Shown here: piece after piece, positions 16,144 through 60,600 of the stretch
Layout of the letters: every line of letters starts with the position of its first letter
Numbering within the stretch: the first letter of the stretch is position 1
NCBI RefSeq assembly: GCF_041381155.1
Contig: NC_091134.1
Coordinates: 39,267,338-39,331,337 of the forward strand
Length of the DNA stretch: 64,000 bases
Direction: 5' to 3'
Origin: Argopecten irradians
Lineage: Eukaryota > Mollusca > Bivalvia > Pectinida > Pectinidae
The notes under the pieces: model-generated
Databases searched by the model: none
What the model was told of the DNA's origin: nothing
What the model saw: only the letters and a program-made list of their open reading frames with translations
Translations under genes and position numbers: made by a program

Positions 16144-16491
16144 CTTCCAACCTGCAGAACTTGTGTTGTCCCCCTTATCTTTAAAATAAGGTACATTTTG
16201 GACCATCCAGTCGTAAATTTGCGACAGTGTAAGTCGCTGTTCAGCCGAACTTTGTATAGCTTTCGTAATTAGGTCAGCATACGAGAGATTTCCCCATGCA
16301 TTACGTCGAGATGATGTCTTCTTGTTTAAGGCGACATTCTCTTGTTTTATTGCATTTTCTGACGCACATTCGTCTGATGCTGGCGAACTTTGTGTATCGT
16401 TAATAGGATCCCGTGGCCTGCAAGGCCAAGTGTTGCTCCTGGCTCTCGTTTGTGGCTCGAAGTTCGGATCTATTTCTGGTTGTGCGTCCAT
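16144..16491 (-). CDS. FOXO: Forkhead transcription factor FOXO, coding exon 1 (partial gene)
   Basis: FOXO proteins are forkhead transcription factors acting in the nucleus downstream of insulin/PI3K-AKT signalling. This exon encodes residues 1-116. Residues 7-22 hold the conserved N-terminal block IDPNFEP and an AKT-type site RARSNT (Thr21, equivalent to Thr24/Thr32 of vertebrate FOXOs). The forkhead domain starts at about residue 62 with [18 protein letters not shown], continues through [12 protein letters not shown] and VPYFKDKGD, and ends at SSAGWK. A GTGAGT donor follows directly, at the intron position known for FOXO genes inside helix 3. The start at 16491 is preferred over an in-frame ATG at 16533 because family members begin shortly before the IDPxFEP block. 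The next exon (helix 3 onward) was not found down to position 1, so intron 1 exceeds 16 kb. Confidence 0.95.
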
Positions 16492-31700: not shown

Positions 31701-34700
31701 TTGAGCCGTCAGTGTAGATCTGAACATGATCAGGGAAAGCCCTAATGCACTCCCGAAAGGAGGATTTGTGTTCTTCGGGTAATGCACTGGACTTTGCCCT
31801 CTCATGTAGAGATAAATTGATATCAGGTGTCTGAATGAGCCATTGTGGTACATCCGACACGGTGTACTCGTCAATGGTGTCGAAATTTGTATTTGATTCC
31901 TGCAAAATTTTGAAATTCTGATGCCAAATGTTGGTATGAGCTTTTGATTTTGTGTCAATATTTCTTGATGTTGTGGGTTAAACACAAGATTAAATGCAGG
32001 GTTTTCAGGATTAGATTTGAGTTGAGCAGCATACTGTAAGGATAATTTCTTTCGTCGATCGGCTCATTAGCTTCCACATGGAGACTCTTCACAGGTGTTG
32101 TTCGAAAAGCTCCAAGTGCAAGACGCAGTCCATAATTCTGGATTGGGTCAAGCATCTGTTGATAGGAGCTGCGAGCCGATCCATAGACAATCGAGCCGTA
32201 GTCAAGTTTTGATTTAATAAGTGAAGCATTTCACGGTCTGCAACCCAATCAGAATGGGAAAGAATACGTAGAATGTTCAGCGCCTTCGAGCACTTATCCT
32301 TCAGATGTTTGATATGTGGAACAAAGGGTAGTTTCGATTCAAATATTAGTCCAGGAAATTTATTTTGTTCAACAATCATTGTGTGGTTTTCGTTTTTGAC
32401 AGAAGTGCATGCAGACAATTTTTGGTCTTGAAAATTTAAAGCCATTTTCGTCAGCCCAATTTAGTAATTTGGCTTAACATTGTTGTAGTTGTCGTTCTAT
32501 AGTGTAGATCAAGAAATCATCAACAAATAGAGACCCTTCTGTAGATTAGCCAAGGCATTTGGTTATGCTGAACTCTGAATAAGTTGAACCCGTTCGAACT
32601 TTGAAATGCCTGTCAGATATGAAATTTGAAATAAACTTTGGCAAATCACTACGTATACCGATATCATGGAGATCGTTCATGATTCAATATTGCTAAGTTG
32701 TGTCGTATGCCTTTTCCAGGTCAAAGAATACGGCCACAAGATGTTCTTTCTTGGCAAAGGCTTCCCGTATAAATGTTTCTAGCCTAACTAAGTGATCTAC
32801 CGTTCCCCTGCGGTTTCTAAAGCCACTTTGCAAAGGACTTAAAATACCAAACTAATCTAGTATTTATCTTACGTTCTAGAGTTTTACAAATGCAGCTCGT
32901 CAATGAAATAGGACGATAGTTAGTAGCATCCTTCCCGGCTTCGGAAGGGGTATGATAGTACATGTAGATTCCTTCCAAGACTCGGGAATTTTGCCAGAAG
33001 AATAAACTTGGTTAAATATAGTTAAAAGACATTTTAGTGAAGAGCCTGGTAATTGTTTTAAAAACATATATGGAATTTCGTCTGGTCCAGCTGCCGAATC
33101 CTTTGATTTCTCGAATTTTTTGGAAGATTTTTGACGGATGAATTTTTAGCAAACTTTTTGGCAAAGGCGTGAGCTATTTCGGATTTTGAAGAAAATATTT
33201 TATTTCTGTTAATGAGGTGGGAGGATGGTGTTGTTTTTCTTTTCCCACTGATTTTATCAATCATTTCCAAAACTTCGAAGATGTATTTGAAATTTTTTTT
33301 TGACGTACTCTTTCCAAGTACTTTTCTTATCGGATATGACAGACCTTCGAGCTTTTGCTCTCCAAAATTTTAAAATTGTTATAGTTGAGACGGTTGCCGA
33401 AGCCAAGTACCGTTTTAGAGCTGCATTTCTACCAGATCTATTGATAAATGAATAATTTGATAGAAGGAACTTTGTAGGTTTTGGCACGGATTTTGGTATG
33501 GTTTTTGTAGCGATAGAAGCGGTTGCTTCTGTGAAAATTTTAATGGGTTCAAAAATGTATCCTCGATGAGCTCCTCTGCGCACAAGCTTTTAAATTGAAC
33601 CCAGTCTGCCTTATGTAGATTACAATGAGGAATCGGCTCTTCAAGTTTTGGTGACCCTATGTTTTTTAGTATAATTAGAAAGTGGTCGCTCCCACAAAGA
33701 GATGTGATTGTAAAATGACTCCAGACAGAGGAGGTGGGATGTGACCATAAAATAACGCCAGAAGAGGTGGGATGTAAGTATAAAATGGCGTTACCTGACT
33801 AGCGATGACAGCCGTGTTGACTATGTATCTGACGTGAGTCTGCTGCTCTGACATCAAACCGTGTAGGAAATTCCCCATTTCGTTTAGTTTACTGTCTATC
33901 TGTCCACGGAAGAACTTACCTGCAAAGTAATGAGTTTATAACCAGAGTAAACATTGTCAGCTGCATGTAATTTACTTAACAAGTTAAGAGAGGTTTTACT
34001 CAAGTCAATTGCAACCATCTGAGATACAAACGAGTAGTGTACTCACCGAAATGATATATGAGGTCATCAATTTTGTTGTTTCCGTGCTGACATATATCTG
34101 CTTCAGCATCTGACCAGTCGATAGGGAAATTGCTCCATGAACTACCGACCTGCTTGTAAAATTAATACACTTGCACAATTCATTGCCAATTGAATAACAA
34201 ACATTTCAACGATGCATGGAACGACACTCTCTAAAAGAATGGGGAAAAGTCCCTTGGTCTTGTTTACAGAATGTATTTTGAATTGTGTCAATAATGTCAA
34301 TTGTAAATGAAAATAATTTGGGGAAGTTCTATATATCATAGCTAATATTCATTATGAAACATAACATTTCTATTAGTTATTCACCCATCGTATTTCTGTT
34401 TTATGAGTTACATGTATACCTCGTTTTCTGTGGGGCAGCTGCTGCTGGTGCTGTGGCCAGAAAAACCCTGATCTCTCTCATTTTCGGATTCGTTTGAAAA
34501 TTGACCATGATCATGAGCAAAATGGTCCATTCCATAACTAGTTTGTGAGTTGCTAGCTTGAACCAGTCTGTCTGTCTGTTCAGATTCCATCCCTATAATG
34601 TTTTGTTTATCGGCACAGTTTTCTTCACTGTGATGGAGATTGGATACTCCATGACAACTAACGCCTGTTTCAAAATGACCAGTTGTCGTATTTCCGTATG

Positions 34701-36633: not shown

Positions 36634-39600
36634 ATGATAACAGAAATTCAAACATTTATTGCACAAATTCAAGGTATAGTTATCTCTAGGAATTATTTTA
36701 TACCGAATTCCAAGAATGCCCGAAAATGGTCAAACCTCAACATGCGCCTTTGATGTAAAGTAAAAGTCTAAGAGTGTTTAAACTGTCTTATCATTCGTGT
36801 CCTTTGACAACTTAATAGACCTATTTTCCTTTCTAGCATTGCTGAAAGAAATATGCAAAGGAGAAAATGGTACGAATAAACAATGGATCGACCAGATTGA
36901 TACAGTTATGTCCCTTGTAACGGACCTGCATGATGAGTACACACTTATGTCGAAAGAGCAGAGAGCTGTTTTGTCTTTAGTAAGTTTGAAAATAACCAAA
37001 ATGATGATATAAAATGAATCATGTCGGTCTGACAGATTCATGCAACAATTATGAAGCTATTTCAGTTTTGATAAGACTTATTCAGTCTTTTCGAATATAT
37101 ATTTTTCTCAATTTTGGAATGAAAAGAAAAACCATGTTTATAACAAACACAAGTTTACAGCGAATTCATGGTTATGATTTAGTGATTTTCATTTCCTGTC
37201 AAGGTTTCTATAAGATACATGTAATGTAAGTACAATTGTATAATGAATTACATGTATGTTTTTAACAAACCATACGTTTGTTTTACTTTGCTTGACAATA
37301 TATATACATTGCAGACTGCCTTCGGTTGGCTAGTGTTGTAGTGGAAAAAGATACATATAGCCAGCCTTCTGATGGAAAAAGTCAATCAGAGGGTGATATC
37401 TTTTCCACTGCAACACTAGCTAGCCTTTGGTATACCCATAATATACTAACATATTTTTAAAACTCACATCTATAGAATTGTGAGAACTTTTGTAAATCAG
37501 GTTTCCTGTTTTATGAAATTAAAATTGTTGAAAAGACTGCTGTCTTTCTTTTCTTTTTCTAGTTGGAAACTCATGCTGTCAATCTTTGGAATGTAGCAGT
37601 TGCCCTGAAAACAAAAGAATCTATTTCAGCATTAGTAAATGCAAAATGCAAGTATTTACTAGAAATATTCAAATAGTGTACTTTATTATATTGAATATTA
37701 TTCACAATAGAAATATTGTACCTGAACCACAGTGGTAAATTTTAGTGAAAATGAAAGTTGAAAGATACACAAAAGTTTTCAAAAGCTTATGAATTAAGTA
37801 GCGGAAGTAGGAAGGATATGTTTGAATTTAATGGAAAAAGAAAAGCTTTATATACCAGCTATTTCATGTGGATCAAACCAGCCAAGACAGAGAGCTTTTG
37901 AATAGATTTGAAAACACTATGATCCATGTTAGCAAAACCAATTTATAATTTTGACAATTTCATCAGTTTGTATCAATCTTTTGAAAAGATTCATTTGAGT
38001 TATTTACTTTTAACATACTAATATACACTTTTGTATTCAACAGTGAGACACATTGCCTTTATTTTGGTGGATTGTTCAACTCCTGTTGAGTTCAATGAAA
38101 ATACATGGAAAAAGAAAATTGTGGTAATGCTTTTTCTTCCTCATCAGATAATATTTCTAACTACCACCTGGCTACTGTTGTAAACTGAGAAACTATTGAT
38201 ACTAATATTATTTCTGTTCTAGACATAAAATGGATTGATGTACTAATGTACATCAAACTAAATCAATTTTAAGACAGTCTTATTTGTTCATGTGTATAGA
38301 TTCAAGTAGGATAAAGTAACATGTTTATCAATGCTTGAACTTTTTCTTTTCTATTTCAGATGGGAATGAAGGCAGGTCGAGCATGGCTAGGTATGTTTAT
38401 AATGTTTTGTTACCAGTTTGGTCTCAGCAACTGTGGCCAAGTGGACTATTCCGCAATTTCTATATTTTGGAAATTTTTGATACGATTTCACTCTGTCCAA
38501 CTTAAAGGCTTGTCTTTGTCTTGAAATTGTCATTTCTGAGTATACTTTTAATTGAAAAATTGACCTTGCATTTTAAGAAATATTTTGAGCATTCATGTTG
38601 TACCTATTGTCCTTTTTTCTCTAAAACTGATATATCTTTTTGCTTGATAGGAAATGATAGCATGAGTAAAATATGCTTTTATGTGTTTTACAGATAGCAA
38701 AGACCCCGTTAGGGCTGATCAGGTGTTTCTTCTCACTGATCAGGTAAGTTTTAGGTATGGATTGGAACTTTCTTAGCCACTGGGGTATTGATCTTTCAGA
38801 TTATTTAATATACTGAATATCTTACAAGGAGCTGCATTGACAGAGTTTTTAAGATTTTTTACCACAAATTTCTCAGAGTTGCAAATTTGATGTAGGTGTC
38901 GGGCACTGGCAGTGTAGTAGGTCTGTGCTTCTTCTTTTTTCATCTCAGGATAAACTGAAATGAACACTGAGTGGATGCTTTCGACTCTTTCAGAATAGGC
39001 TTTTGCTGGTTCCCTTTTTAGGTCACCTGAGACGAAGTCTCAAGTGACCTATTCTAATTGTCTTTTGTTCGTCGTCGTCCATCGTGCGTCGTATGTCCGT
39101 AAACAATTTACATTTTCAACTTCTTCTCCAAAACTGCTGAAGCAATTTCAATGAAATTTTGTACAAACCTTTTAGGGCATAAGGCCAATCAAAATTGTGA
39201 ATTATATGGTCCCCCATCCCCGCAGTGGGCTGCGGGAGTGGCCAAAAGGGGTAAAATTGACTATAATTTGAAAAATCTTCTTCTCCACTCACAGATGTGG
39301 TAGAACCAAATACTCTTCATAGATAGAAAGGTCTTAAGGCCCTTTATTAAAATTGTGAATTATATGACCCTTGGGTCTCTCATTTCCCCCTGGGGAGGGG
39401 GTTAAGTTTACTATAGTTTGTATCAGGAAATTACATTTATGAGCATTATTTGGTCATTTGTTAAAGGAAATTAGTCAAATTTTGTCAGAATTATCAGTAT
39501 AAGATGGCCATTTAATCTTTTTAACAAATTTTCCATGACTGATCCCCAGGGGCCATAGTGGCGGGGTCAAAAGGGGCAAAAAGGCTAAAACTTCAAAAAT

Positions 39601-42600
39601 CGTCTTCTTAAATTCTGGAAATGGTAGAATCAAATACTTTTTATAGATAGAAAGGTCTTAAGGTCCTTTACAAAATTTGTGAATAATATGACCCTGGGGT
39701 CTCACATTTCCCCATGGGGAAGGGGTCAAGTTTACTATAGTTTATATAGGGAAAACACATTTATGAGCATTTTTTGCTCAATTTTCATAGGATTAGCCTG
39801 AGATAACATTTTAATATCATATCCATATTGGTCCTGGCCGACCCCCTTTTTTCTAAAATTCTGGAAATGGTAGAATCAAATACTTTTCATAGATGGAAAG
39901 GTCTTAAGGTCCTTTACAAATTTTGTGAATTATATGACTCTGGGGTCTTACATTTCCCCCTGGGGAGGAGGTCAAGTTTACAATAGTTTGTATCAGGAAA
40001 TTACATTTATGAGCATTTTTTGCTCAATTTTCATAGGAAATGTGTCAAACTTGTTTAGAATTATTAGCCTGAATAGCATCTTAATATCACATCCATATTG
40101 GTCCTGGCCAACCCCCTGGGGGCAGAGGGGCGGGGCCAAAAGGGGCAAAAAGGCTAAAACTTCAAAAATCGTCTTCTTAAATTCTGGAAATGGTAGAATC
40201 AAATACTCTTTATAGATGGAAAGGTCTTAAGGTGTTTTTTATAAAAATTGTGAATTATATGACCCTGGGGTCTCATGTTTCCCCTTGGGGAAGGGGTCAA
40301 GTTTAAAACTTTAGTTTATATATGAAAAACACATTTATGAACATTATTTGCTCAATTTTCATAGGAAATGAGTCAAACTTTATAAGAATTATTAGCCTGA
40401 GATATAGTTTTATATCAAGGGCCAGTATATTAGTGTTTATATGTCTTTGTTTCATTCTAAACAAACTCAGGTGACCGTTAAGGCCAATGGGTTAAGGCCA
40501 TTGGGCCTCTTGTTAAAATCATTATTTCAGCTTACTCTTGAGTTTCCCCTAATAGTTTATTTACCAATTAAATGATTTCATCATCTTCTTTTTTAAAGCC
40601 TAAATCTTTTGTGTCCATTTGGTCAGTTTGTAGCTTCAGTACAGAAGGCTGTTGTGGAGAGGAAGAACGAAGGTGCTGCTGCTAATGTGATAGAGAAACA
40701 GAGGATGGACGTACTACAGGACATGTTTAAACTCATGTGTTACAAGGCAGAAGCTGTGAGTAGATACAAAACAAAAAATACAGGACATGTTTAAACTCAT
40801 GTGTTACAAGGCAGAAGCTGTGAGTAGATACAAAACAAAAAATACAGGACAAGTTTAAACTTATGTGTTACAAGGCAGAAGCTGTGAGTAGATACAAAAC
40901 AAAAAATACAGGACATGTTTAAACTCATGTGTTACAAGGCAGAAGCTGTGAGTAGATACTAAAACAAAAAATACAGGACATGTTTAAACTCATGTGTTAC
41001 AAGGCAGAAGCTGTGAGTAGATACAAAACAAAAAATACAGGACATGTTTAAACTCATGTGTTACAAGGCAGAAGCTGTGAGTAGATACAAAACAAAAAAT
41101 ACAGGACATGTTTAAACTCATGTGTTACAAGGCAGAAGCTGTGAGTAGATACAAAACAAAAAATACAGGACATGTTTAAACTCATGTGTTACAAGGCAGA
41201 AGCTGTGAGTAGATACTAAATAAAAAAATACAGGACAAGTTTAAACTTATGTGTTACAAGGCAGAAGCTGTGAGTAGATAAAATACAAACAAAAAATACA
41301 AGATTCATTTAAATTCCATTTTTAGCATGAGTTTTATCACCAATACTTTGACTTCATATAGACAAAATTATATGCATCAATTCTTTGCTTTAGTAATTCA
41401 ATACTAAAAAGCAAACATGACTAGTGACATAATCTTACATATCAGAGAATCAAAATTCATGCAACTGAAAGTCGTTATATTCTATTTAGTGACGTGATTT
41501 TATTGTTTCAGGCTCTAGCCCAGGTAGACCAACAGAAAGCATTAGACTTGGTACTATTGGCAAAGGAGATGTTGCCAAGCTTTCCGAGAGAGGTTCATAC
41601 CATGCTTACTTACATAGTTATGTTGCTAAGATGACACAAATAAAAGATATAAATGTTTTTAAATTGATGTAAAAATGAATAATAAAACAATTCAAATTCA
41701 AAGGGGAAAATCCTTGCTCCACCGTCGACAGAGCATAAATGATATTCATCATTTGAACAATAATTTATGTTTAAAATTATAATATATTTTGCCTTTGGTG
41801 CATGCGCAATCAGTACTTAATTCCATATAGGATATAGGTCACGGAATTTTTTTGGAATGCAATTAATTATTTTATTTAAAATATTTTTAACTTGAATTAA
41901 AATTAAAGACTCAAACTTTTCAACTTTTCAATGGTGGTAATATTGTAAAGTAAGTTACTTTTGTAACTAAAGAAAAATACTGAATCATTTACTTCTGTTT
42001 CTGATAGGGAAAAAATACCAGTTGTCAGCGGTGGAGCATCTTTAAACCATCATTACAAAAACAATTTTAGAATGTTTTACTTTGTAGAAGTCTAGCTATT
42101 ATGCACAAGGTTAAAAAGATATCAAGGATTGATTGGAAAATGAATTAAAGAAACTAAATAACACATGTGCATATGTTTTAGGGTGGATATCTTTCCATGC
42201 TGTGCTACAACTTTGGAGTGGACATGTACCAACAACAGAAGTATGAACAAAGTGTCATGTGGCTGAGAGAGAGCTTTGAGTTAGGCAAAGGAAGACAAAC
42301 AATTGGATCACGAAATCAAGTAAATGAAATTGATAACAAAAGAATCACTATGATTTTTATCTGTCAGTAGTAGGAATAGTTCTGATTATATGATCGGCTG
42401 ATTATTTATGTATTAGAGGGAGATATCTAATAATTGATTAACTTCCAACATTATGAGCAGATCAGATAGTCATGCAGAACCCTTTGAACCTATTTTGTCA
42501 GTTGATTGTCAGGAGTACATAAGTTCAGGCGTGTAGCTTATAATATTGACTTGTTTACAGTTTATTGTAACAAAATACATTTGTCTCCGAACATAAGATG

Positions 42601-45600
42601 TTATACTTAGTAACTACCTGATTTCAGGCACGAACCTTGAGGTTACTCTCCAATGCCTACCTGGAATGGAATGCCAAAGAACATTGTCAGAAAGCCTTGA
42701 ATGCAGTCACACTGGCCAACACAGTAGGTATATTATGGGACAAAAATTCATCTCATGTCTATAATGATGTTCTGGTGTATTTTCCAGAAAACACAAATAT
42801 TGCAACTTACACTTAAAACATTTTTTATTTGAGATATTGTACTGAAACAGTTTTTGATTTTTGTTTCTAGGAACAACCTCATCCAGCTGGCTTCTATCTT
42901 AATCTGAGAGTACTTCTCTTTATTGGGGAGGCAGATGGACCTATTGAGAAAGGTTGAGTACTCACCATAACTAATCAGAATAATGCAGTAAGAAAGATAA
43001 AAACCTAGCTATTCTCTTTAAATGTCCCACTAATTATCATGATAGGTATGGTCTGTGTAAAATCCTTCTAATAGCCTTATGGAGCATGTGTTCTGTATTC
43101 TTGTTCTTCTCTCCTTGTACAAACTGCATATCTATTTTTTGATCATTTCATAAAATTTTAATCGATGGCTATTATGGTCACATGGTTAAAAATTCTCCTC
43201 ACATATTTCTTTTACTCAGTGTGTAGCCCTCCAACTCTTATTTATCCATTCTGAACCTATTTTGTACAGTTTTCAAGTACTCAATGTAGGTTGATGACTT
43301 TTCCTGGGGGATGCTGGATATCGATCCTCCACTTCCTGACATGTCTTTAGATGACCCTGGCTGCCAAAAAGATGTAATCAGACAAAACCTACCAAGGAAT
43401 CATGTTTAAAATGGTTATCTGCTTTTTTCCAGTATCATTAGTTATTCTTGGTAGAAACAATTTGACTTCTCTGTGAATGTTACTTGTTGCAGCCATTGAA
43501 GACATTCTACATCAGTCAGATGTTACTGTTGATCTTGGGCTGAATGTTGTGCAGCTTGTCTCTCAACATAACAGGTGTGTATTATCCTTCAATATAATGT
43601 CTCTCAACATAACAGGTATGTTTATTCCTTTAATGTCTCTCAACATAACAGGTATGTTTATTCCGTCAATGTCTCTCAACATAACAGATATGTATAATCT
43701 GTCAATCTCTCTTAACATAACAGGTATGTATAATCTGCCAATGTCTCTCAACATAACAGGTATGTGTAATCTGTCAATGTCTCTCAACATAACAGGTATG
43801 TGTAATCTGTCAATGTCTCTAACCATAACAGGTACATGTATAATCCTTCAATGTCTCTCAACATAACATTTGTATACTCCTTCAAGGTCTCTCACCATAA
43901 AAGTTTGTATAATCCTTAAATATGAATATCCATAGCCTTTCCTATTATTATACCTCTGTTCTCATTTCTGAAGCTTTTAAGACATGCAAGTAATAATGTA
44001 TGCTTAAATACATACGCCGATACAAGATCTCCTAGTAAATTAACTAAGGCATTTAAAGTTTTCAATGTTTGAAAAAGTCAATAGATCAATAGCTATATCT
44101 CAGTTGTTTAGTTCATAATCATCAATACCTTGATAATGCAACCATTGGATACAAAACTGATGATTTTGTGTAATTAAATTGATTTGTTAGTGTTCAAATA
44201 TCTCTTGATATAGGACCCAAATCGCTATGGAGGTCACTAAGACTTTATTGATGAACTTTGAGAAGTCTCCTGAGGTAGGGCGGATCATCATCAGCCAGTT
44301 AGAGTTACTGATACAGATGGGGAAAGTCAAGGAAGCCAAGGAATTTGTAGAGGAATCTATCACTGGTAGGTAGTTTATTTAGTGCACAGTGTGTGCCCTA
44401 TTGTGACTTAAAATTCATGTTATATACAGTGGACCAGCAATAATCTGGACGCTGATAGTCTGGAAAACTCACAATCCGGACGGAGATGTCAGGGAACAGA
44501 TTTCCGTAACGTTATTTATACTCACTAGTCCGTAAATTCAGTTTCTGAATCCGGAGCTTATTTTCTATAAAACTTTTAAGTTGCATAAATTGAGTAAGAG
44601 AAGAGTTTAAAGACAATGCATGCATCGGTATTGTGGATGTTTCAGCTCACAATACAGGCAAGCCTTTGGATGTTACAGTTAAGAAAAGGTTTCACCTGGT
44701 CCTATGGGAGCAGGCAGCTTTGGCATATGAGGTAGACTAGCTTTGATTTCCTTTGTGTGTAACTGTTACATTTTACCTGCCTACTAATGACCATTCAAGG
44801 TTTAAAATGGTTGATTATTTGTCCTGTAATACTTCCTGTTGACTGTTATGTCTAATGATTCATGAAAAACTTTATCGACCATTGTATCATATTTTTCATT
44901 AACTCTGGAATCAAACTTTTCCCCATCAAATCAAACCTTTCATAAACTATTGAATGAAAGATTCCATAAGATCTTTATCAACCATTGAATGACAGTTTTC
45001 ATCAACTGATTAACACAAAAAAAAATTGACTGTTGGACTTCAGTCAATTATTGAATCAAATTTTATTGAACATTGAATCAGCTTGTCATTTAATCCTTGG
45101 TCTGCTGGAAACTTCATAGAACAACAATCAAAAATTAATCATCAGTCTTTATTGGATACTGATTTTTTGCTGAAAATTTGTGAACTTGTATATTTGATAT
45201 TGTTCCATATTTAGTTATTAATGTTGGGTAGTGTATGGTATGATTTGTAGGCCAAAGACTATAGGGAAGCCCTTGAGTGGTATAACTACTCACTGAGTCT
45301 GTTTTCTCAGTCGGATGTGGAGGCACATAATCTGGCCAAGTTGTACAGGAACATGGCCTCATGTTACTTACATGTGGAGGAGCAAGACAAGGCATGTAAA
45401 AATTTGTACTATAATGTGATAACTTTAAATTTCATATTTGACTTTTTAAGGAAACAATTTACTTAAGTGAACTGTTTCTGGTGCATGTTTTGATGAGATA
45501 GCACTGTAAAATGGGCATGAGTTTCGACTATAGTAAAGAGATACAACACAACATAATACACAAGAGACAGTCACACAACATAATACACAAGAGACAGTCA

Positions 45601-48600
45601 CACAACATAATACACAAGAGACAGTCACACAACATGATACACAAGAGACAGTCACACAACATTATACACAAGAGACAGTCATACAACATTATACACAAGA
45701 GATAGCCACACAACATTATACACAAGAGACAGTCACACAACATGATACACAAGAGACAGTCATACAACATGATACACAAGAGACAGTCGCACAACATGAT
45801 ACACAAGAGACAGTCACACAACATGATACACAAGAGACAGTCATACAACATGATACACAAGAGACAGTCATACAACATTATACATAAGAGACAGCCATAC
45901 AACATGATACACAAGAGACAGCCATACAACATGATACACAAGAGATAGCCACACAACATGATATACAAGAGACGTCATACAGATACACAAGGACAGTCAC
46001 ACAACATGATACACAAGAGACAGTCATACAACATGATACACAAGAGACAGTCACACAACATTATACACAAGAGACCAGTCCCACACAACATTATACACAA
46101 GAGACAGTCATACAACATGATACACAAGAGACAGTCATACAACATATACACAAGAGACAGTCATACAACATTATACACAAGAGACAGTCATACAACATGA
46201 TACACAAGAGACAGTCATACAACATATACACAAGAGACAGTCATACAACATTATACACAAGAGACAGTCATACAACATATACACAAGAGACAGTCATACA
46301 ACATGATACACAAGAGACAGTCATACAACATATACACAAGAGACAGTCATACAACATTATACACAAGAGACAGCAACAACATGATACACAAGAGACAGTC
46401 ATACAACATGATACACAAGAGACAGTCATACAACATGATACACAAGAGACAGTCACACAACATGATACACAAGAGACAGTCACACAACATGATACACAAG
46501 AGACAGTCACACAACATGATACACAAGAGACAGTCATACAACATGATACACAAGAGACAGTCCACAACATATACACAAGAGACAGTCATACAACATGATA
46601 CACAAGAGACAGTCACACAACATGATACACAAGAGACAGTCATACAACATGATACACAAGAGACAGTCATACAACATGATACACAAGAGACAGTCATACA
46701 ACATGATACACAAGAGACAGTCATACAACATGATACACAAGAGACAGTCATACAACATGATACACAAGAGACAGTCATACAACATGATACACAAGAGACA
46801 GTCACACAACATGATACACAAGAGACAGTCATACAACATGATACACAAGAGACAGTCGTACAACATGATACACAAGAGACAGTCATACAACATGATACAC
46901 AAGAGACAGTCACACAACATGATACACAAGAGACAGTCATACAACATGATACACAAGAGACAGTCATACAACATTATACACAAGAGACAGCCATACAACA
47001 TGATACACAAGAGACAGTCACACAACACATGATACACAAGAGACAGTCCACACATACAACATGATACACAAGAGACAGTCATACAACATGATACACAAGA
47101 GACAGTCATACAACATGATACACAAGAGACAGTCATACAACATGATACACAAGAGACAGTCATACAACATGATACACAAGAGACAGCCATACAACATGAT
47201 ACACAAGAGACAGTCACACAACATGATACACAAGAGACAGTCATACAACATGATACACAAGAGACAGTCACACAACATGATACACAAGAGACAGTCATAC
47301 AACATGATACACAAGAGACAGTCATACAACATGATACACAAGAGACAGTCATACAACATGATACACAAGAGACAACAGATACACAAGAGACATACAACAT
47401 TAATACACAAGAGACAGTCATACAACATTATACACAAGAGACAGTCATACAACATGATACACAAGAGACAGTCATACAACATGATACACAAGAGACAGTC
47501 ATACAACATGATACACAAGAGACAGTCATACAACATGATACACAAGAGACAGTCATACAACATTATACACAAGAGACAGTCATCACACAACATATACACA
47601 AGAGACAGTCATACAACATGATACACAAGAGACAGTCACACAACATGATACACAAGAGACAGTCACACAACATGATACACAAGAAGAGACAGTCACACAA
47701 CATGATACACAAGAGACAGTCATACAACATGATACACAAGAGACAGTCATACAACATGATACACAAGAGACAGCCACACAACATGATACACAAGAGACAG
47801 TCACACAACATGATACACAAGAGACAGTCACACAACATGATACACAAGAGACAGTCATACAACATATACACAAGAGACAGTCGTACAACATGATACACAA
47901 GAGACAGCCATACAACATGATACACAAGAGACAGTCATACAACATGATACACAAGAGACAGCCATACAACATTATACACAAGAGACAGTCATACAACATA
48001 ATACACAAGAGACAGCCACACAACATGATACACAAGAGACAGCCACACAACATGATACACAAGAGACAGCCACACAACATGATACACAAGAGATAGCCAC
48101 ACAACATGATACACAAGAGACAGCCACACAACATGATACACAAGAGATAGCCACACAACATGATACACAAGAGACAGTCATACAACATGATACACAAGAG
48201 ACAGCCACACAACATTATACACAAGAGACAGTCATACAACATGATACACAAGAGACAGCCATACAACATGATACACAAGAGACAGTCACACAACATGATA
48301 CACAAGAGACAGTCATACAACATGATACACAAGAGACAGTCACACAACATGATACACAAGAGACAGTCATACAACATGATACACAAGAGACAGTCACACA
48401 ACATTATACACAAGAGACAGCCATACAACATGATACACAAGAGACAGTCACACAACATTATACACTATACACAAGAGACAGTCGTACAACATTATATACA
48501 AGAGACAGTCATACAACATGATACACAAGAGACAGTCATACAACATTATACACAAGAGACAGTCGTACAACATGATACACAAGAGACAGTCATACAACAT

Positions 48601-51600
48601 TATACACAAGAGACAGTCGTACAACATTATACACAAGAGACAGTCATAACAACATGATACACAAGAGACAGTCACACAACATTATACACAAGAGACAGCC
48701 ATACAACATGATACACAAGAGACAGTCACACAACATTATACACTATACACAAGAGACAGTCCGTACAACATTATATACAAGAGACAGCCATACAACATGA
48801 TACACAAGAGACAGTCATACAACATTATACACAAGAGACAGTCATACAACATGATACACAGAGACAGTCACACAACATTATACACTATACACAAGAGACA
48901 GTCGTACAACATTATATACAAGAGACAGATACAACATGATAACAAGAGACAGATACACAAGAGACAGTCATACAACATAATATACACAAGAGACAGTCAT
49001 ACAACATGATACACAAGAGACAGTCACACACAACATGATACACAAGAGACAGTCACACAACATTATACACAAGAGACAGTTACAACATGATACACAAAGA
49101 GACAGTCATACAACATTATACACAAGAGACAGTCACACAACATGATACACAAGAGACAGTCATACAACATGATACACAAGAGACAGTCACACAACATGAT
49201 ACACAAGAGACAGTCACATACAACATGATACACAAGAGACAGCCACACAACATGATACACAAGAGACAGTCGTACAACATTATACACAAGAGACAGTCCA
49301 TACAACATGATACACAAGAGACAGTCGTACAACATGATACACAAGAGACAGTCACACAACATGATACACAAGAGACAGTCACACAACATTATACACAAGA
49401 GACAGTCATACAACATTATACACAAGAGACAGCCACACAACATGATACACAAGAGACAGTCATACAAACATGATACACAAGAGACAGTCACACAACATGA
49501 TACACAAGAGGACGGTCATACAAACATGATATACACAAGAGACAGTCACACAACATGATACACAAGAGACAGTCATACAACATGATACACAAGAGACAGT
49601 CACACAACATGATACACAAGAGACAGTCATACAACATGATACACAAGAGACAGTCACACAACATTATACACTAAGAGACAGCCATCTACAACATGATACA
49701 CAAGAGACAGTCATACAACATGATACACAAGAGACAGTCACACAACATGATACACAAGAGACAGTTCATACAACATGATACACAAGAGACAGTCATACAA
49801 CATGATACACAAGAGACAGTCATACAACATGATACACAAGAGACAGTCACACAACATGATATACAAGAGACAGTCATACAACATGATACACAAGAGACAG
49901 TCACACAACATGATACACAAGAGACAGTCACACAACATGATACACAAGAGACAGTCACACAACATTATACACAAGAGACAGTCACACAACAACACTATAC
50001 ACAAGAGACAGTCGTACAACATTATACACAAGAGACAGTCATACAACATGATACACAAGAGACAGTCATACAACATTATACACAAGAGACAGTCGTACAA
50101 CATGATACACAAGAGACAGTCACACAACATTATACACTATACACAAGAGACAGTCGTACAACATTATATACAAGAGACAGTCATACAACATGATACACAA
50201 GAGACAGTCATACAACATAATACACAAGAGACAGCCACACAACATGATACACAAGAGACAGCCACACAACATTATACATTATACACAAGAGACAGTCATA
50301 CAACATGATACACAAGAGACAGTCACACAACATGATACACAAGAGACAGTCACACAACATGATACACAAGAGACAGTCACACAACATGATACACAAGAGA
50401 CAGTCACACAACATGATACACAAGAGACAGTCACACAACATGATACACAAGAGACAGTCACACAACATGATACACAAGAGACAGTCATACAACATGATAC
50501 ACAAGAGACAGTCATACAACATGATACACAAGAGACAGTCACACAACATGATACACAAGAGACAGTCATACAACATGATACACAAGAGACAGTCACACAA
50601 CATTATACACAAGAGACAGTCATACAACATGATACACAAGAGACAGTCACACAAATGAACACAACAGACGCATACACATGATACACAAGAGACAGTCACA
50701 CAACATATACACAAGAGACAGCAACAACATGATACACAAGAGACAGTCTACAACATGATATACACAAGAGACAGTCTACAACATATACACAAGAGACAGT
50801 CATACAACATGATACACAAGAGACAGTCATACAACACATGATACACAAGAGACAGCTACAACATGATACACAAGAGACAGTCATACAACATGATACACAA
50901 GAGACAGTCATACAACATGATACACAAGAGACAGTCATACAACATGATACACAAGAGACAGTCACACAACATGATACACAAGAGACAGCCATACAACATG
51001 ATACACAAGAGACAGTCGTACAACATTATACACAAGAGACAGCCCTACAACATGATACACAAGAGACAGTCATACAACATTATACACAAGAGACAGTCAT
51101 ACAACATGATACACAAGAGACAGTCACACAACATTATACACTATACACAAGAGACAGTCGTACAACATTATATACAAGAGACAGTCATACAACATGATAC
51201 ACAAGAGACAGTCATACAACATAATACACAAGAGACAGTCACACAACATGATACACAAGAGACAGTCACACAACATGATACACAAGAGACAGCCACACAA
51301 CATGATACACAAGAGACAGTCATACAACATTATACACAAGAGACAGTCATACAACATGATACACAAGAGACAGTCATACAACATGATACACAAGAGACAG
51401 TCACACACAACATGATACACAAGAGACAGTCACAACATGATACACAAGAGACAGTCATACAACATGATACACAAGAGACAGTCACACAACATATACACAA
51501 GAGACAGTCATACAACATGATACACAAGAGACAGTCATACAACATGATACACAAGAGACAGTCATACAACATTATACACAAGAGACAGTCATACAACATG

Positions 51601-54600
51601 ATACACAAGAGACAGTCACACAACATGATACACAAGAGACAGTCATACAACATATACACAAGAGACAGTCATACAACATTATACACAAGAGACAGTCATA
51701 CAACATTATACACAAGAGACAGTCATACAACATGATACACAAGAGACAGTCATACAACATGATACACAAGAGACAGTCATACAACATGATACACAAGAGA
51801 CAGTCATACAACATTATACACAAGAGACAGTCATACAACATGATACACAAGAGACAGTCATACAACATGATACACAAGAGACAGTCATACAACATGATAC
51901 ACAAGAGACAGTCTACACACAACATATAATACACAAGAGACAGTCATACAACATTATACACAAGAGACAGTCATACAACATAATACACAAGAGACAGTCA
52001 CACAACATAATACACAAGAGACAGTCATACAACATATACACAAGAGACAGTCATACAACATTATACACAAGAGACAGCACACATACACAACATTAATACA
52101 CAAGAGACAGTCATAACAACACATTATACACAAGAGACAGTCATACAACATGATACACAAGAGACAGTCATACAACATGATACACAAGAGACAGCACACA
52201 CATACAACATGATACACAAGAGACAGCAACATAATACACAAGAGACAGTCACACAACATTATACACAAGAGACAGTCATACAACATAATACACAAGAGAC
52301 AGTCACACAACATTATAACACAAGAGACACATACAACATTATACACAAGAGACAAAACATATACAAGAGACAGCCACACAACATAATACACAAGAGACAG
52401 TCATACAACATTATACACAAGAGACAGTCATACAACATGATACAAAGAGACAGCCACACAACATTATACACAAGGAGTAACATAGAATCTATTCTGTTTT
52501 GATGTCAAATACATTTTAATTGGATCTAATAACAACTCTTTAATATTATTTTGAATCCGACAACGAGGAAACTTTGTTTACACTTCATGCAGTAGGCCAA
52601 CCGAGTAGGCTAATGACGAGCATGATATTGTCTGCCGCCTAAGGATCAGTCTTAAGAACAAATAGAAGACCGAAATCGTTTTTTAGTTTATTATTAATTC
52701 AAAGCAAATCTGTCATCTATGAAAAGGTGAAATGTACATTAAGTAATTAAAGTTTATTTAGATTATCATATGACGCAAAACCTTACCGAAGCGTGAACTA
52801 GAAGTAGTCGATCCTACTCTGGGTTTGTGTTCATACGTCGTTCAGTTTACGCTAATTTGAACGCAACTCCCCTCCCATTGACTATATAGGGGCATATGTA
52901 AATATAAGAGACAGCCATACAACATTATACACAAGAGATAGCCACACAACATTATACACAAGAGACAGCCATACAACATTATACACAAGAGACAGTCATA
53001 CAACATAATACAAAAGAGACAGCCACACAGTGCATACAAGGGAAGCTGTCCCTAAAAGACCTTTACAAATACAGTGTACAGATTTAAATTCAAATAAACC
53101 AATACCAATGAAGGCTAAGCAGAGACGGATCAAATTCTTATTTCGTTTCTCACAGCGGATCACAATAAACTTGTGTTACCATTGTGTCACTTGATCAATC
53201 TTTATTTACAAAATCATTCATTTAGACAACAAGCTTTCTGTATCATAATAGCTAAATTCTGCCTTTAGACTAAACATGTAAGGTGTCATGTTTTAATTTC
53301 AAATTTTTGGAAATCTGGTACTAGGCAGTAGAGACAGCTGAGCAGGCAGAACGTTGGGAACCAAGGTCTATCCATACCCAGTTCATCCTCTATAAAGTTT
53401 ATCTCGCTGGAGCAGATGTTGATAAGGGTAAGAAAGCAGATACCATATGTCATTAGTTCCAACTATCAAATATTAGCTTCAAAGTTAAAAATCTAAGAAC
53501 GGGATATCTTGTCTATAATTATTTGAAATAGCATCTGTAAGAAGAAGAGGAAGCAAGAAGTAAATATGAAATACGAGAAATAAGATGAAGACACAACAAA
53601 AATCTTATATTTTTTCATCAGCTATACATCATTACCATTAGGCTACATTATGCAAAGACCTCATTAATTACCCAGTACCCATGCCACTTACACTCTGGAT
53701 ATATAGCTTATCCTTAAAGAGTTCTAACTAAAAAATGTTTGCAATGAAAACATTGAATCTTAAGACCCTTGGCATGCAATTGGGTATGCTCACTGAAATC
53801 AGGTGTTTGTTCTCAATTGTTTAAATAATTCGATGGTGTTTTGAAAGTTAAGATGATTTTTGTGTTGTCAGCCAAGTGTGTGCTACAGAAGATGTGTAAG
53901 ATGGTATCTAGTCCTGACCTTGGGGATGACAATACTGACACACATGACATCATGTGTCTTGCAGCTCAAATGGCATTCGAGGTAACCAGGTTTTATAACA
54001 ACAATGTGTCAAGAAGCACACAAAATGTTTAACAATGGTCAATGGATGAGCGTTTTATGCCCACTTAGGTCCTGATCCATAGTGATTTTGTAAAAGGAGC
54101 GGGTCGGTGTGGTTTATACATTGTGTTAAATGCGGTCTCTGTCACTCAGCTGACGGAGCATGCTTCTTTGACTCGGTTGGTAGAGTCGTAGATTTCCAGG
54201 CCAATTCAAAATACCATGCTACACTGGGTTTGATTCCTGGTCGGGGCACTCGACAGGAACGTATATTTTCTCTGTTCTTCTACAATTTTGACTGATCCAA
54301 GGTCAAATACTTTCAATGGCTCCAAGGCCAAGGTCAAGGTCACTGTTATAGTAAGAAATTAAGTCAGAATAGTTATGATATGGATGCTTCAGGTTTATAT
54401 CTAAATACTTAAATTGATTCCTAATGAAGGTGGCATCATTTTACTATAGTGATTTTATACCCAATCACATTATCATGCTCAGTGGTGGCCTTTTGTAATT
54501 CAGTAAAAGCTTGAGCATTCAAATCCTAAAATCATTTGCTGTTGATGTGTTGTTTTACGTTGAAACCTGTTTATGTAAACATGGTATTTTACATTGAAAC

Positions 54601-57600
54601 TTACCAACATACAGACAAGATGAAAGTTTACCTACAATCAAAATGGTTTCCATGAGGTTGAGAATTTTCATTTAGATTAATTAATCTGTTGTTAAATTGT
54701 TTGTTGAAGGAGAATCACCAATTAATTGCCTCCTTGGCCCTGGAGTGTGTAGCTAATAGTGGCTCTGATCCCTGGCAGGTCCTAACAGCCCTTCGCTGTC
54801 TCATCAGACTTAGACTTACCTCTCAGGATAGAGACCCAAGGTAAATCAGATCTTATACATGTCCTCACAGCTCTCTGTTGTGTCATCAGACTTAAACTTA
54901 CCTCTCAGGATAGAGACCCAAGGTAAATCAGATCTTATACATGTCCTCACAGCTCTCTGTTGTGTCATCAGACTTAGACTTACCTCTCAGGATAGAGACC
55001 CAAGGTAAATCAGATCTTATACATGTCCTCACAGCTCTCCACTGTCTCATCAGACTTAGACTTACCTCTCAGGATAGAGACCCAAGGTAAATCAGATCTT
55101 ATACATGTCCTCACAGCTCTCTGTTGTGTCATCAGACTTAGACTTACCTCTCAGGATAGAGACCCAAGGTAAATCAGATCTTATACATGTCCTCACAGCT
55201 CTCCACTGTCTCATCAGACTTAGACTTACCTCTCAGGATAGAGACCCAAGGTAAATCAGATCTTATACATGTCCTCACAGCTCTCTGTTGTGTCATCAGA
55301 CTTAGACTTACCTCTCAGGATAGAGACCCAAGGTAAATCAGATCTTATACATGTCCTCACAGCTCTCCACTGTCTCATCAGACTTAGACTTACCTCTCAG
55401 GATAGAGACCCAAGGTAAATCAGATCTTATACATGTCCTCACAGCTCTCTGCTGTGTCATCAGACTTAGACTTACCTCTCAAGATAGAGACCCAAGGTAA
55501 ATCAGATCTTATACATGTCCTCACAGCTCTCTGTTGTGTCTTACCTCTCAGGAAATACACCCAAGGTAAATCTGATCTTATACATGTCCTCACAGCTCTC
55601 TGCTGTGTCATCAGACTTAGACTTACCTCTCAGGATAGAGACCCAAGGTAAATCAGATCTTATACATGTCCTCACAGCTCTCTGCTGTGTCATCAGACTT
55701 AGACTTACCTCTCAGGATAGAGACCCAAGGTAAACCAGATCTTATACATGTCCTCACAGCTCTCCACTGTCTCATCAGACTTAGACTTACCTCTCAGGAT
55801 AGAGACCCAAGGTAAAGCAGATCTTATACATGTCTTCACAGCTCTCTGTTGTGTCTTACCTCTCAGGAAATACACCCAAGGTAAATCTGATCTTATACAT
55901 GTCCTCACAGCTCTCTGTTGTGTCAGCAAACAACTCATTTAGAGTCTGAAAATTAGTATACAACTGTTTTTGGAGACACTGAATACACTAGTCATACCTG
56001 TAGAAATGAAGACGTCTGAAAATCCAACCAACATGGCTTCTTTGGCCCCTATGGATCAACTTAATAGGGATTTGGGCCCTTTCTGAAAAGACATCAATTT
56101 TCTAGTTTTGTATAGGATTATCTGTAGCAATAAAGGTGTTGATTAATTAGTGATATTCTTTCTATTTTCAGGACAGATCCTTCCAATATCGATAGAAGTA
56201 TTCAAACTGGTGAGTTGTTTTATATAAACTCGAATTGCATTTATTATCAGATCATATTTCACTAACTTCCTCCCACAATTGATTGCTTCTACTTGCTGGT
56301 AATATAGGAACATCTCTAAGCAGCAAGTAATTACTATGGTTTTGCTATCAAGTGATATTTAGCAGAGCATCATCAAGTTCGATATGGTGTCATATATTTA
56401 TAATCAATTCAAAATGGCTTTAGAGAAGTAGGAATAACATGAAGTGCTATTTTCTTCTTATTTTTATTTTTCAGAAATCATACATGCTGCTATCTCCATG
56501 ACTTAACTTTAATATCGTGTAAAAAATGTTGCTGTTTCAGCCTATCACAAATTACTGCAACTTCAAAATGAAAGCAAAGAAAACCATTGTCAGGTCCAAA
56601 ATGAAGCCAGCTGGTTTATTAAAATAGGTAATTTCTTATACTGTATTTGTTCTAAGTGCCCAGACTATTAAAACGATAGAATAAAAAGAAAAATGTTTGA
56701 TAAGTAATTATAAGAAATTACATAGGTGATTACGTAGGCATGATATTTTCTATTGAATTTGCCACCACAGCATCAGTAGTGTCGGGTCCCAAATTACCAT
56801 TTATAACACAACTTGACCACTTTGCTACAGAGATCACTTTTTCCTTGTCCCTTGGGTTTGAGTGTAGTTTTGATATCTGCAGGAATTTTAGAAGGAAATA
56901 GAACAGTTTGGGGGGGGGGGGTGGTAACTATTTCTGTCTGTCTTATACAGAGGATTCCGCTTATTTGAATAAGTCATTTTCCAGAAGAAAATATGCAAAT
57001 AACTGGAGTATTCGAGTCTGATACATTATCTTACATTAATACAGCCTGGAACCTAGCCTTGCAGTGTGAGGAGAGTCCACATAGGATGAAAACACTCTTC
57101 TCTCTCTGTCAGCAGGTAAAATGGTGCCAGAATGCGTAGGTGTTTCAAAACTTATTATTGCACTTTTACTCAACAAATAGAGCTCGGTCCCAATGCAAGC
57201 ATGACTGAAATATAATGACACTGAATAAAATTTTCAAACAGAAATAACAATAGAAAAATCACAAAAAAAAAACCAAAATGTTATGATAATGACACTATAT
57301 GCATTGTAATGAAAATGCCTTTAATGTAATATTGAAAAACAGAAACCTGTAAAGACTTTTGATATCATGATTCCTCATAGAAGTCCTGACGTCAGTTCAT
57401 GATATACCTACAGTTGTAGAACTAAGATTTTGATAGCATGATTCTTCGTATTGTCTCGTAAATTATATCATAATATCTATTAATAGTTCAAATAGACATT
57501 GTTTACCCCTAGCTGTCGTCGCTGTGTCCCTGTGACAACAGTAACCTGACCAGACAGAAGACGTGTATGTTGATGGCAGCAGCTGCCAGTCTACAGGTGG

Positions 57601-60600
57601 CCAGGCTATCTACAGAGGAGGCAGAGAAGGTAGGGTCTTGCTCTTATACTGCTGACATATTAACAACTATAAAAAAGGGAAATGTCTCAAAGTATTTTAA
57701 CCACTTGCAAAATATCATTAAAACATAAAGAAACCAAAGTTTAACATATTCAAGTATCCATGTCAATAAATGTTTCTTGTGGAAAAGGCTGTTGGTTTGA
57801 GTTTACAAATAATGCCCTAGAAACCTCTAAATTGCATTTATCAATTTCTGCATTAGCAAATTTATCCTTCATTATGTCTTTGTTTTGTTATCTCGGACAA
57901 TTACTAAAATATAAAATTGCATTACAGAAATATTGTCTGGAAGAGGCTTTACAGCATGTGAAGAACTGTAGAGGTCTAATTAACCAGTTACAGCAGAACG
58001 CACTGGTCACGGCAGGTACAGTTGTCTCCCCTTACTGGTCATGCCAGGTACAGTTGTCACCCCTTACTGGTCATGGCACATACAGTTGTTTTCCCTTACT
58101 GGTCATGGCAGGTACAGTTGTCTCCCCTTACTGGTCATGGCAGGTACAGTTGACTCCCCTTATGACAGGCACAGTTGTCTCCCCTTACTGGTAATGGCAG
58201 ATACAGTTGACTTCCCTTACTGGTCATGGCAGGTACAGTTGTCTCCCCTTACTGGTCATGTCAGGTACAGTTGACTCCCCTTATTGACAGGCACAGTTGT
58301 CTCCCCTTACTGGTTATGGCAGATTCAGTTGATTTCCCTTACTGGTCATGGCAGGTACAGTTGACTCCCCTTACTGGTCATGGCAGGTACAGTTGACTCC
58401 CCTTACTGGTCATGGAAGGTACAGTTGTTTCCCCTTACTGGTCATGGCAGGTACAGTTGACTTCCCTATGACAGGTACAGTTGTCTCCCCTTACTGGTCA
58501 TGGAAGGTACAGTTGTTTCCCCTTTCTGGTCATGACAGGAACTGTTGTCTCCCCTTACTGGTCACATCAGGTACAATTGTCTCCCCTTACTGGTAATTTC
58601 AGGTATAGCTGACTCCCCTTACTGGTCATGGCAGGTACAGTTGACGCCCCTTACGACAGGCACAGTTGTCTCCCCTTACTGGTCATGGCAGGTACAGTTG
58701 ACTCCCCTTACGACAGGCACAGTTGTCTCCCCTTACTAGTTATAACAGACACAGTTGACTCCCCTTAAGACATACAGTTGTCTCTCCTTACTGGTCATTG
58801 CCGGTACAGTTGACTCCCCTTACTGCAGGTATAGTTATCTCCCCTTACTTGTCATGGCAGGTACCCCTTACTGGTCACCACAGGTGCAGTTGTCTACCCG
58901 TCAACACAGCTACAGTTATCTCCCCTAACTGGCCACCACAGGTACTATTGTCTCCCCTAACTGTTTACAAAAAAAACTGTGGTGTCTCCCCTCACAGGTC
59001 AACACATGTACAGTCCCCCCTCTTTACTAGCCACATCAAATCATCCCCATATTATTTAATTGGCATATTTCTCAGAATCAAATTATTGTTATTGTCATAA
59101 TAGAGAGCAAAGGAAAAGACACTACAGAGACATTATTACTGCTGTACGAGTTTGAGGCCCAAGTGAAACTCAATGATCCGATGTCAGAGCAGACCCTAGA
59201 ACAAGCCCTGCGTCTTCCCAACCCAGACCCAAAGACATTTGAAACATTGGCCGGTACAGTATTTATGGTTTCTGATCTGCATTGAAATATAGATATACTA
59301 ATAGGCTAAAATTGTATCTTGTGTATCAGTACAATTAAACAAGAAACGGGAATCATTTCTTGTTTAAGTTTAGACGTGTTAAAGACTGTAGAGGTGTCTA
59401 GTAGACAAGTAGGAATAATGGGAATTATGTATACAGCATTAACTTTACAGGAATTGTTAAAAGAATTTACAGAAAAATCATGCATGTAGATTTAATAAAT
59501 CAGATTTACCTAATAAAAGAGTCATATAATTTCAGCCCTGGCCATGGAGCCCCCTGCTCAAAGTAAGAATTTGAGTGTAAGAGCAATCAAGGTCGCCATA
59601 AGGAAACACCTACAGCTGCCACAGCCTGATTTTACCAAATGCAGGTATGTCAGGGTGTTCTGAACTTTTACTCCCCATTTATTGGAATTGAATGTGTATT
59701 TAAATGCATCACTTCATTAACTAAGACTCCTTTCTTCACCACAGCAAACTTTTCCACAGTCTGGTACAGCTTTCTCTTTCTGTGGATTCAGGAACCAGGG
59801 AGGAGGCTCTCACATACTACTCTGAGGTCCTAGAGGTCATTGATAAAAGGTCACAGGTAAGTACATTTATGTTATGGCCAAAGGTCAAAGGTAGGTACAA
59901 AGGTCATCAACAAAAAGTCAAAGGTAAGTACATAGAGGTCATTAATAAAAGATCACAGGTAAATACATAGAGGTCATTGACAAAAGGTCAAAGCTTATTA
60001 CATTTGTACATAGAGCTCTTAAACAGAAGCACTGACAAAAGATCACAGGTGGGTTTTTTTTCTCTCTAGTTTTCACCCGACATAGACATTTCAAAAGGCT
60101 TAAGTTCCATGCCATCTGACAAAAAATGATAATTTCTGGTAAGCTCTTAATTAATAACTACACTTTATACAGATCATTGGCCAGGTACTGTTATTAATAC
60201 AAAGACAGTCTCTGCATATGTCAGATGACACCAACATCACAAGTTTTGGAAATCATACAATATTGTCATTTATAGCCATCTACAGTTCAAACCTGAATAC
60301 ATAAATACAATGATTTTAGCAGAAATTATTTGTATCAAACAGGGTCAGTATCCAGAAATGGAGGTCCTCTGGCTTATGACTAAAGCATGGAACTGTGGAA
60401 TCAACTTTTACAGGTAAACTCATAGATTCATGTACATCTTAAAATAATTTTAGAAATCTATATTTTGCTATTTAATTTAATGGAAAAAAATAATTTGCTG
60501 CCTTCAAAATTTACTTTAAATTATTTAAAGTATTGAACATCATATTCCTATTTTCAGTTCTGGTCGATGTGATGAAGCTGAGCGTTGGTGTAGCACCAGT

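Follow-up and report, generated by a model that had tools for sequence, protein, structure and literature searches.

Five introns of the TEX11 gene in the bay scallop Argopecten irradians open with a tandem array whose unit covers the end of the preceding exon together with its 5' splice site (exons 7, 12, 18, 23 and 26). The arrays match the "mirages" named in lancelet, which are minisatellites lying across exon/intron boundaries, and we consider it probable (roughly 0.8) that they are minisatellites of this type, produced by high array turnover and tolerated by splicing. Mirages are already known from lancelet, and the novelty of the present case is that they occur in a mollusc. Junction arrays recur in this minisatellite-rich genome, with TEX11 at the extreme. 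The stretch of DNA analysed, referred to here as the window, is 64,000 nucleotides long.

The TEX11 gene model of 29 exons was built by hand, and the first-pass annotation was right about the identity of the gene, the numbering of the five exons and the host being a bivalve. The predicted protein matches the Pfam SPO22 family (E 1.1e-55), and comparison of Pecten maximus TEX11 with the bay scallop protein gives 86%. Protein P0001, an uninterrupted 925-aa frame on an assembled contig of 3224 bases, is equal to the model at 923 of 925 residues and differs at residues 132 and 163 alone. Because a contig of 3224 bases stands for a gene of 24 kb, it represents spliced RNA. The exon 15 donor is GC, as P0001 demands; a GTAAAA donor at the joint of exons 15 and 16 was dropped, since it does not fit P0001.

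Table. Features of the window, with the exon end at which each TEX11 junction array sits
Feature	Position	Strand	Exon end	Description
TEX11 (SPO22/ZIP4-like) gene	36634..61070	+		29 coding exons, 925 aa; meiosis gene
Exon 7 donor array	40715..41293	+	40755	64-bp unit (41 exonic + 23 intronic), 9 copies (TRF 9.0)
Exon 12 donor array	43557..43920	+	43574	36-bp unit (18 + 18), ~10 copies (TRF 9.9)
Exon 18 donor array	54779..55925	+	54840	82-bp unit (62 + 20), ~14 copies, several variants
Exon 23 donor array	58002..58925	+	58015	32-bp unit (14 + 18); degenerate continuation
Exon 26 donor array	59831..60055	+	59856	35-bp unit (26 + 9); 3' end ragged (by eye)
27-bp array, TEX11 intron 15	45548..53029	+		~250 copies; interruption 52475-52905; not junction-derived
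Neighbour gene array	33690..33794	-	33795	~33-bp units from donor of exon 33919-33795; exonic part little or none

We located the TEX11 arrays with TRF and decomposed them into units. Each consists of about 5 to at least 25 copies, arranged head to tail and running into the following intron, and the founder copy sits at the 5' edge, at the exon; the arrays begin 41, 18, 62, 14 and 26 bp inside exons 7, 12, 18, 23 and 26, respectively, before crossing the donor. In the exon 7 array the identity of copies to the founder is 0.94-1.0, and in the exon 12 array the founder donor reads GTGTGT and most copies read GTATGT. TRF ends the exon 7 and exon 12 arrays at 41289 and 43915, and for the exon 18 array it reports 13.3 copies up to 55855. 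The exon 23 array was decomposed into 25 copies to 58766 (TRF 32 bp x 28.6 to 58864, with degenerate rows after), and the exon 26 array into 5 diverged copies to 60002 (TRF 35 bp x 4.7 to 59993). Four of the unit sizes given earlier therefore stand, and the fifth, for exon 26, is 35 bp rather than about 40.

Additionally, we compared every TEX11 exon end (25 exonic and 12 intronic bp) with the 1 kb of intron that follows it and with 200 shuffles; in the acceptor version of this junction test the comparison was with the preceding 1 kb. Tandem copies were found for 5 of the 28 donors; none of the 28 acceptors had any. Donors 7, 12, 18, 23 and 26 scored 37, 24, 37, 24 and 29, where 99% of shuffles reached at most 16, 14, 15, 14 and 15. 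The remaining 23 donors and all 28 acceptors scored no higher than 12, and the closest to an exception among those donors was donor 11, whose score of 12 was equalled by 3 of 200 shuffles. TRF, unit decomposition and the junction test thus agree with the initial observation of five arrays built from exon end and donor. The units were also said to be mutually unrelated, and this holds: among seven units (the five junction units, the 27-bp unit and that of the neighbour gene) no similarity exceeds that of shuffles, the best of 21 pairs being matched by 3 of 200.

In P0001 all five exon ends are joined at the first, founder donor. As the contig is spliced RNA encoding the same protein, the first donor was used at all five arrays in this one protein from one assembled contig. 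The contig may derive from an individual with different array lengths. We examined 46 downstream GT-bearing copies: splicing at 44 of them would cut the protein short, and at the other 2 it would not, so use of the first donor matters. We propose that a short tandem duplication of an exon/intron junction would be followed by expansion into the intron through slippage or unequal exchange. By exon definition, the spliceosome would then match each acceptor to whichever donor lies nearest on the other side of its exon; this donor is the founder copy, and all later copies would therefore be intron and decay as neutral DNA. The origin of junction arrays would lie in a very high rate of tandem array formation in the bay scallop genome, and their survival in the lack of any disturbance to splicing. 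PMC9225289 states that, among alternatives in large introns, preference goes to the splice sites at the shortest distance across the exon, and the lancelet accounts, in the portions available, describe splicing as undisturbed by mirages (PMC3087553, PMC3902484).

The copied donors carry no special conservation and drift no differently from the remaining unit positions: over the five arrays the AG/GT core is mismatched at 18 of 236 positions, versus 213 of 2656 elsewhere in the unit (P 1.0). This bears on the idea that the arrays are functional, with selection favouring numerous U1 binding sites as a control on TEX11 splicing or premature polyadenylation. Downstream copies do retain GT: in the exon 7 array 8 of 8 do so, and in the exon 18 array 14 of 14 when aligned, or 13 of 14 when judged by position; however, these two arrays vary little at any position, only 15 of 24 copies retain GT in the exon 23 array, and acceptor junctions bear arrays as well, which argues against a U1-site function. 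With the core mutating like other positions, we regard selection of this kind as very improbable.

The first-pass annotation also suggested that new introns or splice sites are being gained here through tandem duplication of AGGT-bearing segments. AG/GT is present in the units of exons 12, 18, 23 and 26, and PMC4974935, in the part at hand, cites other genes in which tandem duplication gave rise to an intron, among them the potato RdRp gene, where a segment with a splice signal was likewise duplicated (PMC4974935). Unlike that case, TEX11 gives no indication of intron gain: the assembled message passes over every array copy, and none of the 28 acceptors resembles its own intron beyond shuffles (best equalled by 10 of 200). 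Intron gain is not supported because the acceptors bear no relation to the units and the donor copies drift, and we hold it to be most improbable. Tandem arrays are also prone to error in assemblies, and the arrays might be false; the distinct variants of the exon 18 copies, the graded decay, and the finding of similar arrays on several contigs all speak against this, and an artefact is extremely improbable.

In order to place TEX11 in its genome, we examined 149 boundaries of kinase exon matches, picked without regard to arrays (kinase exons form the whole boundary sample; PF00005, with 25 matches, and PF00067, with 100, were left out). Junction arrays were found at 2 of 82 donor sides (L047, L069) and 4 of 67 acceptor sides (L050, L062, L082, L061), in each case extending across the junction by 11 or more exonic and 14 or more intronic bases. 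One of these is a decayed two-copy case; with it the count is 6 of 149 boundaries, and leaving it aside 5, with 1.3 to 3.7 expected. Two further acceptor candidates (L085, L086) were dropped as their arrays do not span the junction on alignment, and two candidates scoring just under or at the cut-off (L040, L037) were left out of the count. As such arrays recur in the kinase sample, TEX11 is the extreme and not an isolated case; its rate over all boundaries (5/56) is not significantly higher than that of the kinase sample (P 0.14). The random sample (200 kb, evenly spaced, one chromosome-size contig) holds 44 arrays over 44,555 of 200,000 bases (22%).

Two points stand against plain high turnover: the arrays of TEX11 are on donors only (5/28 versus 0/28 acceptors, P 0.051) and more frequent than on kinase donors (P 0.011), and tandem copies of donor motifs are in excess across the genome. 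It is therefore possible, although unlikely in our judgement, that exon/intron junctions, donors above all, are preferred sites of tandem duplication, for instance by way of DNA damage coupled to transcription or splicing; the genome would then produce mirages in excess, beyond simply tolerating them. Three tandem copies of AGGTRAGT have 12,586 matches in the genome against 2,299 for the reversed motif (5.5x), while the single motif has 80,328 against 62,109 (1.29x); pattern matches are not, however, independent arrays. In the random sample a donor of at least 6 bits occurs in 13 of 25 array families versus 5.7 for permuted matrices (equalled in 4 of 400; unit shuffles 0 of 200), but at a stricter cut-off of 9 bits this falls to 3 of 25 versus 0.8, equalled by 25 of 400. 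The kinase count exceeds the 1.31 expected from random-sample array density (P 0.011) and the 1.6-2.1 expected from its own flanks (P 0.026-0.060), but its excess over the 3.65 obtained when periods up to 170 bp are counted is not significant (P 0.3), and kinase donors alone (2 of 82) have an expectation of 0.7-2.0. Non-spanning arrays in the kinase flanks have edges 6 to ~215 bp from the junction with no donor peak, and edges within 50 bp are more often on the acceptor side. Within TEX11, randomly seeded single units would place at least 5 of 6 on donors with P 3.3e-5, but the gene was chosen after the pattern was noticed. The earlier assertion that chance location would not explain the arrays is thus borne out for TEX11 taken alone and by the tandem donor motifs, and is overstated in light of the kinase boundaries, acceptors included. 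These results suggest, and do not settle, that junctions are favoured birthplaces of arrays. That transcription or splicing helps seed junction duplications, so that several per cent of exon ends, and by extrapolation thousands per genome, would carry mirages, is rather doubtful.

When arrays were taken as the starting point, an exon clearly ending in the array was seen at L021 alone among 20 array edges, so for many donor-like arrays an adjoining exon is not evident; of two arrays from the motif-pattern list, L023 adjoins a likely exon and L022 does not. The tandem pattern of TTTYCAGG shows no excess in raw counts (1,001 matches versus 2,372 reversed). A donor-only reading drawn from it was overturned by the acceptor arrays of the exon sample, and we hold this pattern uninformative for that reason. 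Acceptor-like sites are somewhat frequent in the random sample (at least 7 bits in 7 of 25 families versus a shuffle mean of 4.5; 9 of 200 shuffles equalled the summed score; a control matrix whose core was changed to GA gave 1 of 25).

The lancelet mirages, as far as the available parts of the reports go, occur in Adh3, troponin C, the globins BflGb6 and BflGb9, and PGBD5, with many copies bearing splice signals at 5' or 3' boundaries and regular splicing kept (PMC3087553, PMC3902484); haplotype and somatic instability is also described there. TEX11 shares a unit spanning the boundary, at its five donors, and a regular message undisturbed by copied signals in the P0001 contig; the kinase sample shares the involvement of both 5' and 3' boundaries. 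The scallop case differs from lancelet in its mollusc host, in having five arrays in one gene, and in the restriction to donors in TEX11. Human CBS has a 31-bp VNTR at exon 13/intron 13, across the exon end and donor, at a single locus. Ordinary intronic minisatellites have unit size, tandem expansion and decay in common with the TEX11 arrays, whose unit, in contrast, includes exon and splice site and whose founder is under coding constraint. The portions consulted of a study of C. elegans minisatellites near alternative exons (PMC4039745) and of one on Daphnia tandem repeats (PMC3152781) contain nothing on junction-spanning units.

A junction array holding several to about 25 donor copies is a natural experiment in splice-site competition: use of the first copy points to exon definition, and use of the last to intron definition. 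The one assembled TEX11 message has the first copy throughout. If the rate in the kinase sample holds, there would be many such tests per genome, and a lancelet curiosity would become a wider feature of array-rich animal genomes. If junctions are indeed preferred sites of duplication, each mirage would test the choice of the spliceosome among identical neighbouring sites. Gene annotation and short-read assembly are also liable to be misled by junction arrays.

A sixth TEX11 array, of 27 bp (45548-52474 and 52906-53029), is far bigger than the five at junctions. Its donor score is 8 and its acceptor score 12; it was considered as an acceptor array, as it and exon 16 have AGAGACAG in common, but a match as good occurs in 10 of 200 shuffles. 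In the minus-strand neighbour gene a longer first exon was rejected because annotated protein P0121, with which the exon end at the array is consistent, is without that stretch. The ~33-bp array of this gene resumes at 31012-31207, past an RT-like insertion.

TEX11 lies on contig C1 (75,513,862 bases of an 845.8 Mb genome) and its product is 86% identical to the TEX11 of Pecten maximus. The protein P0001, derived from an assembled contig of 3224 bases (source label 'lgn'), differs from our gene model at two residues only, 132 and 163; since the gene covers 24 kb, this contig must represent spliced RNA. P0001 demands a GC donor at the joint of exons 15 and 16. Two introns, 3 and 15 (window 37648 and 45392), seem to have GC donors.

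In order to identify junctions that had been copied in tandem, all 56 TEX11 junctions were compared with up to 1 kb of their own introns and with 200 shuffles. Five of the 28 donors are tandemly copied, with scores of 24-37, while every other junction scored 12 or less; donor 11, at 12, was matched by 3 of 200 shuffles and each other remaining junction by at least 10. The five donor arrays claimed by the first-pass annotation, at exons 7, 12, 18, 23 and 26, are thus real, and their units are unrelated to one another, as it had also stated: across 21 pairs, which also took in the 27-bp unit of intron 15 and the unit of the neighbour gene, we detected no likeness beyond shuffles (the best was matched by 3 of 200). 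A sixth array, with 27-bp units in intron 15, has no relation to any junction by the same test. The probability that at least five of six randomly dropped one-unit seeds would fall on donors is 3.3e-5, for a gene chosen after the fact.

Features of the window (window coordinates)
Feature	Position	Strand	Details
TEX11	36634-61070	+	29 exons, 925 aa; Pfam SPO22 E 1.1e-55
Exon 7 array			starts 41 bp inside exon; unit = exon end + donor + 23 bp intron
Exon 12 array			starts 18 bp inside exon; unit = exon end + donor + 18 bp intron
Exon 18 array			starts 62 bp inside exon; unit = exon end + donor + 20 bp intron
Exon 23 array			starts 14 bp inside exon; unit = exon end + donor + 18 bp intron
Exon 26 array			starts 26 bp inside exon; unit = exon end + donor + 9 bp intron
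27-bp array, TEX11 intron 15	45548-53029		about 7 kb; no junction origin
Uncharacterised gene	28785-36356	-	divergent to TEX11; protein has 4 homologues with E of 0.001 or less
RT-like element	31216-33689	-	weak RNase H match, 20.1 bits (Pfam cut-off 25.8)
Forkhead-domain exon	16087-16539	-	Pfam Forkhead E 5.5e-13
~340-bp element, 3 copies	about 29970-30310, 35440-35790, 41710-42045		dispersed

The name mirage was coined in lancelet Adh3 for tandem repeats that cross exon/intron boundaries; such repeats, at boundaries of both the 5' and the 3' kind and with regular splicing undisturbed, are also described from globins, troponin C and PGBD5 (PMC3087553, PMC3902484). The scallop arrays show every feature described there that is open to testing here. 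No report of mirages outside lancelet was found in the literature searched, most subscription papers being beyond its reach. The TEX11 arrays are a striking molluscan example of this known kind, and one that recurs in the bay scallop genome.

At exon 7 the identity of copies to the founder (the true exon end and donor at the 5' edge of the array) is 0.94-1.0, and at exon 26 it is 0.71-0.91. The AG|GT core showed neither special conservation nor special loss in copies relative to other columns (mismatches 18/236 versus 213/2656; Fisher P 1.0). GT stands at the expected place in 46 decomposed downstream copies, 44 of which would truncate TEX11 if used; the remaining two (exon 23 +96, exon 26 +102) would give extra in-frame residues. 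In P0001 all five array exons are joined at the founder donor; the array introns measure 486-1331 bp. This fits a preference, when alternatives sit in large introns, for pairing whichever splice sites lie nearest each other across the exon (PMC9225289). Intron gain via tandem duplication, suggested by the first-pass annotation and proposed for lancelet too, lacks its expected mark, in that TEX11 acceptors bear no relation to the array units, and is not borne out. The best account of the junction arrays is that tandem duplication would be very frequent in this genome and that arrays at junctions would be tolerated because splicing favours the founder site.

A random sample of twenty evenly spaced 10-kb stretches of C1 contained 44 arrays covering 44,555 of 200,000 bases (22%). 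Similar satellite units of about 145-160 bp occur in separate stretches of this sample. For junctions elsewhere, we hand-picked 82 of 142 PF00069 (kinase) matches for ends within the domain, blind to arrays and leaving out the other 60, and fetched them with about 350 bp on either side (80 stretches). These ends are match ends rather than verified junctions, with a stop codon inside 9 of 82 matches and the frame open for at least 90 nt past the match, at the 3' end in 14 of 82 cases and at the 5' end in 8 of 67; true junctions are therefore fewer than counted, and array rates are, if anything, underestimated. Junction-spanning arrays were found on the donor side of 2/82 matches (L047, 39 bp; L069, 95 bp) and on the acceptor side of 4/67 (L050, 46 bp; L062, 50 bp; L082, 85 bp; and L061, decayed to two copies). 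Counting only the five whose arrays TRF found, 5/149 boundaries compare with 1.31 expected from random-sample density at periods 14-125 (P 0.011), 1.6-2.1 from the array density of kinase flanks (P 0.026-0.060), and 3.65 when periods up to 170 are allowed (P 0.3). TEX11 exceeds the kinase sample for donors (5/28 versus 2/82, P 0.011); over all junctions its rate is not significantly higher (5/56 versus 5/149, P 0.14). It is less likely than not that exon/intron junctions are a true hotspot for tandem arrays. In stretch L040 (C13:1542682-1543648) a kinase exon has an array on either side (34 bp and 30 bp); upstream, the unit holds GAGGGTAAGA, which may stem from the donor of the preceding exon.

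Genome-wide, three tandem AGGTRAGT motifs at periods 24-54 gave 6602 + 5984 matches versus 1051 + 1248 for the reversed pattern, although such matches are not arrays, the first ones listed deriving from two arrays; single motifs gave 39,880 + 40,448 versus 31,030 + 31,079. When array families of the 200-kb sample are counted, 13/25 hold a donor scoring 6 bits or more, versus 5.7 with permuted matrices (4/400 reach 13), and 3/25 hold one at 9 bits, versus 0.8 (25/400 reach 3). This is the best evidence that donors occur in arrays more often than by chance, whatever the cause.

In the minus-strand neighbour gene, whose four homologues are all taken to be from scallops, an array begins right at a donor consistent with the annotated protein P0121, and is divided by the RT-like element within it; that its unit includes an exonic part is doubtful. 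The ~340-bp element has, by eye, inverted ends (GATGCTCCACCG...CGGTGGAGCATC) and is MITE-like. The Forkhead-domain exon presumably resembles FOXO.
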